Below the pieces are notes generated by a model that saw only the letters and a program-made list of their open reading frames with translations, did not search any database and was not told where the DNA came from. This document shows, piece after piece, positions 631 through 4,136 of a stretch of DNA of 47,658 bases. The first letter of the stretch is position 1, and every line of letters starts with the position of its first letter. The stretch covers positions 1 through 47,658 of the forward strand of contig JAIKXH010000025.1 in NCBI GenBank assembly GCA_024684215.1, given 5' to 3'. Source of the stretch: Lachnospiraceae bacterium. GTDB taxonomy: Bacteria; Bacillota; Clostridia; Lachnospirales; Lachnospiraceae. The position numbers and the translations under genes are program-made.

Positions 631-1137
631 ATGGAAGACTATTTCAAAATTGGTATAATCACCTCATCTCACGGCGTTCGCGGTGAGATGAAGGTGTATC
701 CTACAACAGATGATGCGAGACGCTTTAAGCGCTTAAAAGAAGTATTTGTTGAGACAAAAGAGGGCTTAAAAACCTTTGAAGTAGAGAGCGCACGCGTTTC
801 TGATAAAGTCCTTTTAAAATTAAAAGGCATCGATACTCCGGAGGAAGTTGTAAAATACCGCCAAAGGGGTATTTTTGTTGACCGCAAAAATGCGGTTAAA
901 CTCTCAAGCGATGAATACTTTATTGCCGATCTTATCGGAATAAAAGTCATCGATGAAAATGAAAATGAGGTCGGAACATTAACGGATGTTATGCCTACAG
1001 GAGCCAATGATGTTTATGTCATTGAAATGACAGACGGCCAAGAACTTTTGCTTCCGGCTATTAAAGAATGCATTCTTGAAGTAAATGTTGAAGAAGGCGT
1101 TATGCGCGTACATATACTCGATGGGTTGCTTGATTGA
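631..1137 (+). CDS. rimM: 16S rRNA processing protein RimM
   Basis: RimM is a 30S maturation factor that binds ribosomal protein S19 and helps shape the 16S 3' domain. The 168-residue protein has the expected two halves. The N-terminal barrel carries GIITSSHGVRGEMKVYP (about residues 7-23). The C-terminal PRC-barrel starts near residue 95 with DEYFIADLIGIKV and includes PTGANDVYVI. The length is normal. The gene starts seven bases after khpA ends and has a weak Shine-Dalgarno, which suggests translational coupling. Confidence 0.96.
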   Translation: MEDYFKIGIITSSHGVRGEMKVYPTTDDARRFKRLKEVFVETKEGLKTFEVESARVSDKVLLKLKGIDTPEEVVKYRQRGIFVDRKNAVKLSSDEYFIADLIGIKVIDENENEVGTLTDVMPTGANDVYVIEMTDGQELLLPAIKECILEVNVEEGVMRVHILDGLLD

Positions 1138-1154: not shown

Positions 1155-2198
1155 TTGAATAATACTGTAAACAGAAATATTTCCTTTGATATACTTAGAA
1201 TAATTTCCGCTTTGAGCATTGTTGTGATGCATATTACTTCCGGAAATCTGTATTCTTTGGAAATGGGGTCGGCTGCATGGAGACTGTCGGCTCTTATAAA
1301 TTCTGTATCTCACTTTGGAGTACCGGTTTTTGTAATGATCAGCGGTGCTCTTTTTCTTGCTCCGGACAGAGAAATCAACATAAAAAAGCTATGGCTTCAC
1401 AATATTCTCAGACTTTTTTGTGCCTATTTGATATGGAGTATTATATACGGAAGCCTTGATTATCTTACTTATAGGAACGGTTTTAGGGGATATTTATGGT
1501 GTGCCGTGGTAGCAAGACCCCATTTATGGTTCTTGCTGATGCTTATAGGCATCTATATTATAAGTCCCATACTTATCAGGTGGGTCAGAGCAGCCTCTGA
1601 AAAAGAAGTGAGATATTTTATTATTATATTTGTTATATTTCAGATTTTTTGTGAGACATTAAAAATATATATTCCAGCAGATATAGTTCAGACCGTTATT
1701 GATCTTAGAAATATTGAACTTGTATGTTCTTATGTGGGATATTTTGTAATAGGGTACTATATAGTTCATGTGGGACTTAAAAAAGTATTCAGATATGCTT
1801 TGTATTTACTTGGGCTTTTGGGAATTCTATCAAGTATTTTTATGCTTACATTTATCTCAATAAAAAGGGGAGTCCCGGTTTCTGAGATTGTAGATTCTTA
1901 TTCAAGTTTTACTTTCTTTTATTCAACAGCTTTATTTACATTTGTATATAAAGTTTTTGAAGGAAAAGAGATAAAGCCCATTGTAAAAAAGATTGTTTCA
2001 GGCATCGGAATCGATACTTTTGGACTATATTTGTCACATATACTTATTATTGAAAATTTTAGTGCTTTATCAAAATTGCATGACAGCATGATGCTTGTTC
2101 CCGGTATTATTTTCTATGCAATCGCAATTTTTACGGTTGGAATACTTGGAAGCGCTTTGATAAGACGTATTCCTTTCATAGGAAGATATATTTGCTAG
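1155..2198 (+). CDS. Membrane acyltransferase, acyltransferase-3 family
   Basis: This 347-residue multi-pass membrane protein belongs to the acyltransferase-3 (WecH/OafA-type) family, which O-acetylates or O-succinylates sugars of surface polymers. Diagnostic features are the N-terminal ISFDILRIISALSIVVMH with the conserved Arg and His, the segment PVFVMISGALFL, and HLWFLLMLIGIYIISPIL. About ten hydrophobic segments are visible. The start is a TTG at 1155, seven bases after GAGGG; an ATG at 1148 in another frame stops after four codons. The gene is lodged between rimM and trmD, which are normally adjacent, so it looks like an insertion into the operon. The substrate cannot be read from the sequence. 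Confidence 0.85.
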   Translation: MNNTVNRNISFDILRIISALSIVVMHITSGNLYSLEMGSAAWRLSALINSVSHFGVPVFVMISGALFLAPDREINIKKLWLHNILRLFCAYLIWSIIYGSLDYLTYRNGFRGYLWCAVVARPHLWFLLMLIGIYIISPILIRWVRAASEKEVRYFIIIFVIFQIFCETLKIYIPADIVQTVIDLRNIELVCSYVGYFVIGYYIVHVGLKKVFRYALYLLGLLGILSSIFMLTFISIKRGVPVSEIVDSYSSFTFFYSTALFTFVYKVFEGKEIKPIVKKIVSGIGIDTFGLYLSHILIIENFSALSKLHDSMMLVPGIIFYAIAIFTVGILGSALIRRIPFIGRYIC

Positions 2199-2214: not shown

Positions 2215-3579
2215 ATGAAAATAGATGTTTTAACTTTATTCCCTGAATTTATGGACAGGGGATTACATACAAGTATTTTGGGAAGAGCCTGTAATAATGG
2301 GCTTTTGGATGTAAACATTGTAAATATAAGAGACTTTTCTGATGATAAAAACGGCAGAGTAGATGATTATACTTACGGCGGCGGTGCGGGTATGCTCATG
2401 CAGCCTCAGCCAGTTTATGATGCTTATATGTCTTTAAAGAAAGATAAGAAATGCCGCACGATATATGTAACTCCGCAGGGTAAACCGTTTACTCAAAAGG
2501 ATGCGGTTTCTTTATCAAAAGAAGAGGAACTTGTGTTTTTATGCGGACACTACGAGGGTATTGACGAGAGAGTTTTAGATGAAATAGTAACCGATAGATT
2601 CTCCATCGGTGATTATGTATTAACCGGCGGTGAGCTCCCTGCCCTTGTTATGATAGATGCTGTATCGAGACTTGTTCCCGGTGTTTTGGGGAATGATACC
2701 TCTGCGGAAATAGAGTCTTTTTACGGGGACCTTCTTGAATATCCGCAGTATACAAGACCTGAAGTATGGAGGGATAAAAAAGTACCTGAGGTGCTCCTTA
2801 CAGGCAATCCGAAATCGGTGGCGGAATACAGAAAAGCTAAAGCAGAGGAACTTACTAAAAAAGTAAGACCCGATCTTTACGAAAAATATGAGCTTAGAAA
2901 CAAAGAAATTGACAGGCTCTTAAAGGATAAAAGAAATAATATCCAGATTTTGGAATCTTTAAGACGCGGTACCGGCGAGATTATTCATACAGATCCGCTT
3001 GTTGTATACATGGCATGTGACGATCTGGTTATGGTAGACATAGATGCTGTAATGGATGTGGATGAGTTTATGGCCCTGCTTCCCGACAATATTCACAGTA
3101 TTGTTGTATCGAAGGAATTTGGAGCTGTTCTCAGAAATGTCCCCGGAATGATGTATTCCTGCGATGTTTATAATTATGTGTATACCGAAAATGTACACAG
3201 AAAGATTAAGAATAAAGACATCAGAAAGCTTGATGAGAGCTTTGCCGATTATGTTGGCAATAAATACGCGCTTGGCGGATATGATTATGCCGTTGAAAGA
3301 TTAAAGGCCGGTGTGGTATACGGTATTTTTGTTGACGATGAAATTGCCGGATTTGTCGGAACTCACGGTGAAGGCAGTATAGGAATGCTTTATGTCGATG
3401 GTAAATACAGGCGCAGAGGTCTTGCGGCCGATTTGGAAGGATTTATGTTTAACAGGGACCTTGAGGCGGGAAGAACTCCCTACGGTCAGGTCGTTCTCGG
3501 AAATGAAGCGTCTATGAAATTGCAAGACAAGATGGGCGTTTACGGCGGAGATAAGGTATTAACCTGGCTTCATATGTAG
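2215..3579 (+). CDS. trmD: tRNA (guanine37-N1)-methyltransferase TrmD fused to a C-terminal GNAT-like acyltransferase domain
   Basis: Residues 1 to about 240 are a complete TrmD, the SPOUT enzyme that makes m1G37 in tRNAs reading CNN and some other codons. They contain MKIDVLTLFPEF, YGGGAGMLMQ (54-63), CGHYEGIDERV (110-120) and the knot segment IGDYVLTGGELPALVMIDAV (131-150). An ordinary TrmD ends there. This protein continues for about 212 residues without a stop. The extra part resembles FR47/GNAT acyltransferases: VVYGIFVDDEIAGFVGTH, then an acetyl-CoA loop YRRRGLA (398-404) and GNEASMKLQDKMGV (429-442). The start is the ATG at 2215, preceded by GGTGGA, and not the TTG twelve bases upstream. 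The substrate of the second domain is unknown. Confidence 0.93.
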   Translation: MKIDVLTLFPEFMDRGLHTSILGRACNNGLLDVNIVNIRDFSDDKNGRVDDYTYGGGAGMLMQPQPVYDAYMSLKKDKKCRTIYVTPQGKPFTQKDAVSLSKEEELVFLCGHYEGIDERVLDEIVTDRFSIGDYVLTGGELPALVMIDAVSRLVPGVLGNDTSAEIESFYGDLLEYPQYTRPEVWRDKKVPEVLLTGNPKSVAEYRKAKAEELTKKVRPDLYEKYELRNKEIDRLLKDKRNNIQILESLRRGTGEIIHTDPLVVYMACDDLVMVDIDAVMDVDEFMALLPDNIHSIVVSKEFGAVLRNVPGMMYSCDVYNYVYTENVHRKIKNKDIRKLDESFADYVGNKYALGGYDYAVERLKAGVVYGIFVDDEIAGFVGTHGEGSIGMLYVDGKYRRRGLAADLEGFMFNRDLEAGRTPYGQVVLGNEASMKLQDKMGVYGGDKVLTWLHM

Positions 3580-3788: not shown

Positions 3789-4136
3789 ATGAGCGACATT
3801 ATTAAAGAAATCGAAGCAGAGCAGTTAAAGGCTCAGATCGACGATTTTGCAGTTGGTGATACTGTTAGAGTACACGGCAAGATCAAAGAGGGAAACCGCG
3901 AAAGAATCCAGATTTTCGAGGGAACCGTTATTAAGCGTCAGGGCGGAAGCAACAGAGAGACCTTTACCGTAAGAAAGTCTTCTAACGGTGTAGGCGTTGA
4001 AAAGACTTGGCCCCTTCATTCTCCTAATGTAGAGAAGATTGAAGTTGTTAGAAAGGGTAAAGTTAGACGCGCTAAGCTTAATTACCTTCGTGACCGCATT
4101 GGTAAGAAGGCAAAGGTTAAGGAAATCGTTAAATAA
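3789..4136 (+). CDS. rplS: 50S ribosomal protein L19
   Basis: L19 sits at the 30S-50S interface of the ribosome. The 115-residue protein has the family hallmarks [31 protein letters not shown] and the C-terminal [20 protein letters not shown]. The start at 3789 follows a strong GGAAGGAG and gives the normal length; an open frame reaching further upstream runs through the leader hairpin and is not coding. The gene is followed directly by a strong terminator, so it closes the rpsP block. Confidence 0.97.

Follow-up and report, generated by a model that had tools for sequence, protein, structure and literature searches.

The window analysed here is a 47,658-nucleotide stretch of Lachnospiraceae bacterium DNA (contig JAIKXH010000025.1, forward strand), and the element in question is a trmD-acyltransferase fusion gene at 2215..3579 (+), one open frame of 454 amino acids with no internal stop. 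Residues 1-230 (2215..2904, +) constitute TrmD, the m1G37 tRNA methyltransferase of the SPOUT class, an essential enzyme and an antibacterial drug target; they are matched by the NCBIfam models TIGR00088 (residues 1-229, 294 bits against a cut-off of 195) and NF000648 (residues 1-222, 305 bits against a cut-off of 220). A first-pass annotation, made from the sequence alone, had described a complete TrmD running without a stop into an acyltransferase-like tail, and this description is borne out. The Arg152 column of TrmD is invariant in 128 of 128 aligned family rows; where H. influenzae TrmD has its catalytic Asp169 (residue 167 of the fusion protein, positions 2713-2715), all 128 have Glu, as does the TrmD of Calditerrivibrio nitroreducens.

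The tail, a module of two lobes and about 220 residues, begins near residue 231 and has its canonical GNAT part at about residues 331-454; the GNAT character given to it at first pass stands, whereas the proposed division into 240 and 212 residues does not. The N-lobe (residues 231-330; 2905..3204, +) is a GNAT-like half without the coenzyme A (CoA) loop, modelled by AlphaFold with a predicted local distance difference test score (pLDDT) of 96. The C-lobe (residues 331-454; 3205..3576, +) is the GNAT acyltransferase domain, to which the Pfam models PF13673 (25.4 bits, cut-off 23.6) and PF08445 (FR47; 24.1 bits, cut-off 22.1) and the predicted fold all point, PF00583 falling barely below its cut-off (20.5 against 20.7 bits, whole protein). 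Within it lie the H-x-E-G-S-I-G-M strand (residues 384-391; 3364..3387, +), a candidate active site, and the predicted acyl-CoA pyrophosphate loop YRRRGLA (residues 398-404; 3406..3426, +), an instance of the R/Q-x-x-G-x-G/A loop of the GNAT superfamily (R399-R-R-G402-L-A404); this loop and the other motifs quoted at first pass lie where they had been placed.

Since a Foldseek search with the whole fusion protein returned TrmD structures only (all 50 rows listed, inhibitor complexes included), the tail was modelled with AlphaFold and fold-searched on its own, apart from the TrmD part. Its predicted structure has the two-lobed GNAT fold of the family of GLYAT, the animal enzyme that conjugates acids with glycine, and the fold alignment with bovine GLYAT spans tail residues 1 to 225 at 12% identity. 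The Pfam Gly_acyl_tr models gave no match to the window tail at E values up to 1, and the best relative seen for these models, L157, reached 26.6 bits against a cut-off of 27. A chance GNAT match was ruled out by Pfam, the family alignment and the fold, and the Pfam and fold checks envisaged at first pass came out in favour of the domain. The favoured picture of the gene product is a two-enzyme protein, in which a helix connects a normal TrmD to an N-acyltransferase of the GNAT type whose two lobes are predicted to fold, overall, like GLYAT.

Recurrence and history of the fusion

In one group of gut bacteria the fusion genuinely exists and is found again across many species. A match came from 28 of the 31 genomes of the genus, and in nine of the 28 it extended along the tail (in two pieces in G010); of 397 sampled family genomes, 32 had a match to the tail at E 0.001, and a script found 15 loci besides the window with TrmD and tail in a single frame, two of which (G321 and G343) do not have an intact CoA loop. 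A scan of named bacterial genomes yielded 214 relatives; among the best 80 of these, which were analysed, the module was fused to TrmD in 46 and unfused in 34, and the fused loci all come from genomes titled Lachnospiraceae or from a genus placed there, with the exception of one titled 'bacterium' (L122). Eisenbergiella porci (L151) is an example of a cultured Lachnospiraceae species whose TrmD has the full tail. Because the same fusion recurs in many independent genomes, a sequencing error hiding a stop between two genes, the threat to the annotation that had been foreseen, is very unlikely and was ruled out. The fusion protein has a single match in its own genome (2.79 Mb, 92% complete), namely its own locus, and of 58 plasmid records that matched it, none covered 80% of the query. 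Separately, in L004/L111 the fused frame changes near the end of the GNAT part and continues in frame through rplS (614 amino acids), which could be a frameshift in a metagenome-assembled genome or real.

Motif conservation was counted on 23 fused proteins picked without regard to motif; this set was used in place of 128-row counts, which are inflated at the H-x-E-G-S-x-G-M-L columns because the loci were found by that very pattern. The R-x-x-G-x-[GA] loop is retained in 21 of the 23, together with H-x-E-G in 15, and the recurrence with a conserved CoA loop, put as a condition at first pass, holds. Mean identity over all 23 proteins is 66% for TrmD, 27% for the N-lobe and 39% for the GNAT lobe, against 76%, 64% and 75%, respectively, in the window subclade (n = 4). 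On account of these lobe identities (75% versus 39%), the acyltransferase lobe is under strong constraint in the window lineage and freer in other lineages.

The module is also found without TrmD. In the 34 unfused loci, no match to trmD, rimM or rplS lay within the flanks of up to 4 kb on each side. Unfused GNATs, such as those of L123 (Clostridium oryzae), L152 and L166, show the same two-lobed module as the TrmD tail, but are not joined to TrmD and have no nearby trmD operon genes that we could find; full tails compared with seven unfused loci gave a profile match of E 7e-62 over 227 columns. A survey of 371 genomes of the class detected the module in 14 at E 1e-20, including four genomes from the family to which the window belongs, and the only module frame longer than 300 amino acids outside the family in that survey, L229, has a partner other than TrmD. 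This frame (L229:1398-2978) is a triple fusion of pyroglutamyl peptidase, GNAT module and alkyltransferase-type DNA-binding domain (PF01035). A NUDIX domain is joined to the same module in L043 (a Lachnospiraceae genome) and L157 (Clostridium guangxiense), and two module copies apart from TrmD, G401 (L098) and G764 (L231), contain internal stops and are decaying genes.

In the tree of the module (96 rows, 56 fused and 40 not), the fused label needs two changes, compared with a mean of 30.9 after shuffling, and the likelihood improves when the fused rows are constrained to a single clade (approximately unbiased test, p-AU 0.73). In the TrmD tree of 128 rows, a free quick search scatters the tails, with 14 changes; a single clade of GNAT-derived TrmDs fits better than that search (p-AU 0.64), and so does a single clade of the rows with gutted tails described below (p-AU 0.60). 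A history of many separate losses and three separate guttings was dropped, since the constrained one-clade trees had the higher likelihood, and for the same reason the TrmD tree does not fix the number of losses and guttings; one gutting event is possible. With both trees taken together, one fusion event in Lachnospiraceae is the simplest reading of the sequences, non-rejection by the tree test not being proof of it. The module tree omits L111 (frame into rplS), L116, L122, L130 and L163 (tail start not found by the script), three duplicates, and L001-L003, L005-L007 and L009 (the window itself or proteins already present among the named loci); A3 omits L111 and L154 (too long), and A4 omits L111, L154, L157 (NUDIX part), L116, L122, L130 and L163.

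Hollowed tails and other TrmD C-termini

Most of the sister species sampled in the genus keep TrmD but have lost the CoA-binding core of the tail. The missing block, residues 348-412 (3256..3450, +), has gaps at every column in 90% or more of the 18 gutted rows and comprises the helix, strands and loop that hold acyl-CoA in GNATs; about 165-176 tail residues remain in these 18 genus members. The 19 TrmDs of the genus other than the nine matched along the tail, 18 of which were aligned, measure 396-415 amino acids where complete (L010 ends at the contig end). Profile comparison shows the gutted tails and the full tail to be homologous (prob. 97, E 1e-10), and similar hollowed tails occur in two TrmDs of other genera, L089 and L093. 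The ratio of nonsynonymous to synonymous changes (dN/dS), obtained with our own Nei-Gojobori script for 10 pairs from three gutted clades in which synonymous changes are near saturation, had medians of 0.126 (six pairs), 0.064 (three pairs) and 0.316 (one pair) in the gutted tails and 0.060, 0.046 and 0.081 in TrmD for the same clades in the same order; no tail value came out for clades A and B (full) or for clades C and E (gutted), as their synonymous changes were beyond the accepted range. Where measurable, the gutted tails are, by this ratio, under purifying selection, somewhat looser than that on TrmD. The full and gutted alignment sets omit L004 (run-on), L029 and L030 (duplicates) and L010 (contig end).

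The survey of trmD lengths in the family, anticipated at first pass, was made on the 150 best-scoring rows from the 397 genomes and did turn up GNAT tails among the long frames: 135 of the rows listed have frames shorter than 340 amino acids and 15 have frames of at least 340, all of which were inspected. Six of these carry GNAT tails (G321 and G347 with damaged motifs) and two carry hollowed ones. G058 and G376 have a flavodoxin-like tail with 4Fe-4S motifs, G040, G088 and G397 a decayed form of the latter (prob. 96) and G044 an HD domain, while G369 has an N-terminal extension only; 'flavodoxin-like' is a label read from the sequence, and Pfam backs the iron-sulfur part only. The 40 family TrmDs fetched for short frames, 227-260 amino acids long, are all without such a tail. 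The TrmD C-terminus is a site where unrelated modules got joined. Tails of this kind are seen at L094 and L095 (flavodoxin-like with 4Fe-4S motifs), at L090-L092 (the decayed version) and at L096:1027-2265, where the partner of TrmD is an HD-domain protein (PF01966, E 6.5e-7).

Function of the fused module

In the available portions of two papers, TrmD occurs alone or fused to Tm1570 (PMC11187310, PMC1829167). The TrmD-Tm1570 fusion (PF01746-PF09936), for example in C. nitroreducens, likewise has a second enzyme at the TrmD C-terminus, but its partner is another SPOUT methyltransferase, whereas that in the window is a GNAT acyltransferase (PMC11187310; PMC1829167); PF09936 gave no match in the window protein at E values up to 1. 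No description of a TrmD-GNAT fusion was found in the open-access literature searched, and in the portions cited the fusion partner described for TrmD so far is only another methyltransferase.

The reading that we favour, if tentatively, is that the tail acts on its own as an acyl-CoA:amine N-acyltransferase and is tied to TrmD. In the window organism the C-lobe would still bind acyl-CoA and pass its acyl group on to a small amine or a substrate resembling an amino acid. This reaction would not depend on methyl transfer, and the fusion would serve mainly to keep the acyltransferase steadily expressed along with an essential enzyme; sister lineages have lost the acyltransferase part and keep only the rest of the tail. 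This reading is favoured on two grounds: (i) the module turns up apart from TrmD as well as joined to NUDIX or to pyroglutamyl peptidase, and (ii) short frames make up 135 of the 150 family TrmDs listed. Several observations weigh against it. GLYAT uses a Glu-His catalytic dyad (Glu226/His263) and an Arg (Arg228) for the glycine carboxylate, and its two lobes exchange strands (PMC12509317). The likeness of the tail to GLYAT (PDB 7pk0) is at the level of the fold, which leaves counterparts of the dyad and of Arg228 hypothetical; H384 and E386 are frequent in the tail family and might stand in for the dyad. H-x-E-G is missing in eight of the 23 fused proteins, two of which have lost the CoA loop too. 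The fusion has been retained though tails have diverged to 26-38% identity between genera, and this may indicate a tie to TrmD closer than co-expression. Finally, among 12 standalone copies with flanks read, no gene stood out as a shared neighbour, and no pathway is therefore suggested.

Ranked next, because gutted tails are kept, is the less probable reading that the tail serves TrmD in regulation or structure, as an acyl-CoA sensor or a dimer support, with catalysis secondary or lost. The 18 genus members that drop residues 348-412 and yet keep a homologous tail, the purifying selection on such tails where measurable (synonymous changes near saturation) and the two hollowed tails beyond the genus speak for it, but TrmD as such can do without the tail, since none of the 40 short-frame TrmDs has one, and unrelated modules (iron-sulfur/flavodoxin-like, HD) occupy the same site in relatives. 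It is rather improbable that the tail couples acyl-CoA status to m1G37 methylation, either as an acyl-CoA-dependent switch or by acylating the bound tRNA or its amino acid, with the gutted lineages as natural knock-outs; full, gutted and absent tails constitute natural sets for asking whether the two reactions interact.

That the tail acylates the tRNA held by TrmD, near position 37 or at the amino acid on the tRNA, is unlikely: the physical tie to a tRNA-binding enzyme and the existence of GNAT enzymes acting on tRNA argue for it, whereas the module is often found without any tRNA partner and sister species retain TrmD but have lost the CoA site. RimI-TsaB/TsaD also links a GNAT with a tRNA position-37 enzyme, but involves another GNAT family and another modification enzyme. 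The acidity of the tail was dropped as an argument against a tRNA target and carries little weight, because tail and TrmD part have the same net charge (-8). We also doubt that the tail is a neutral passenger, fused once and now decaying without selected function in most lineages; the loss of H-x-E-G in eight of 23 proteins, the hollowed tails and the parallel decay of the flavodoxin-like tail form a decay series that speaks for it, but the GNAT lobe is as conserved as TrmD in the window subclade, and purifying selection is seen in those hollowed tails that could be measured. Acetylation of the neighbouring-gene ribosomal proteins S16 and L19, at the N terminus or at lysines, is very improbable, as RimI is just one among many GNATs at its fold-search score and aligns with the C-lobe only, no RimI-type NCBIfam model matched at E values up to 1, and rplS also lies within 300 bases downstream of tail-less trmD in 20 of 40 loci.

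Of the first-pass interpretation, the fused and recurring GNAT/FR47-like acyltransferase holds, and nothing specific was found in favour of the targets suggested for it (the same tRNA, S16, L19). Speaking against those targets are the module standing alone in 34 of the best 80 loci and its NUDIX and pyroglutamyl peptidase partners, the loss of the CoA core in most sampled sister species and the 40 tail-less short-frame TrmDs; a tRNA or protein substrate is possible, being compatible with all these counts.

Operon context

The gene order is rpsP-khpA-rimM-(acyltransferase_3)-trmD-rplS, with names given by similarity and position; rimM lies at 631..1137 (+) and rplS, encoding L19, at 3789..4136 (+). 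Within the flanks covered, 45 of the 46 fused loci have rimM upstream, some 3 kb from trmD in the case of L127, and 38 have rplS downstream. Between rimM and trmD the window has an acyltransferase_3 gene with a TTG start (1155..2198, +; PF01757, 112 bits), which was matched at the same position in L109-L112, close relatives of the window.
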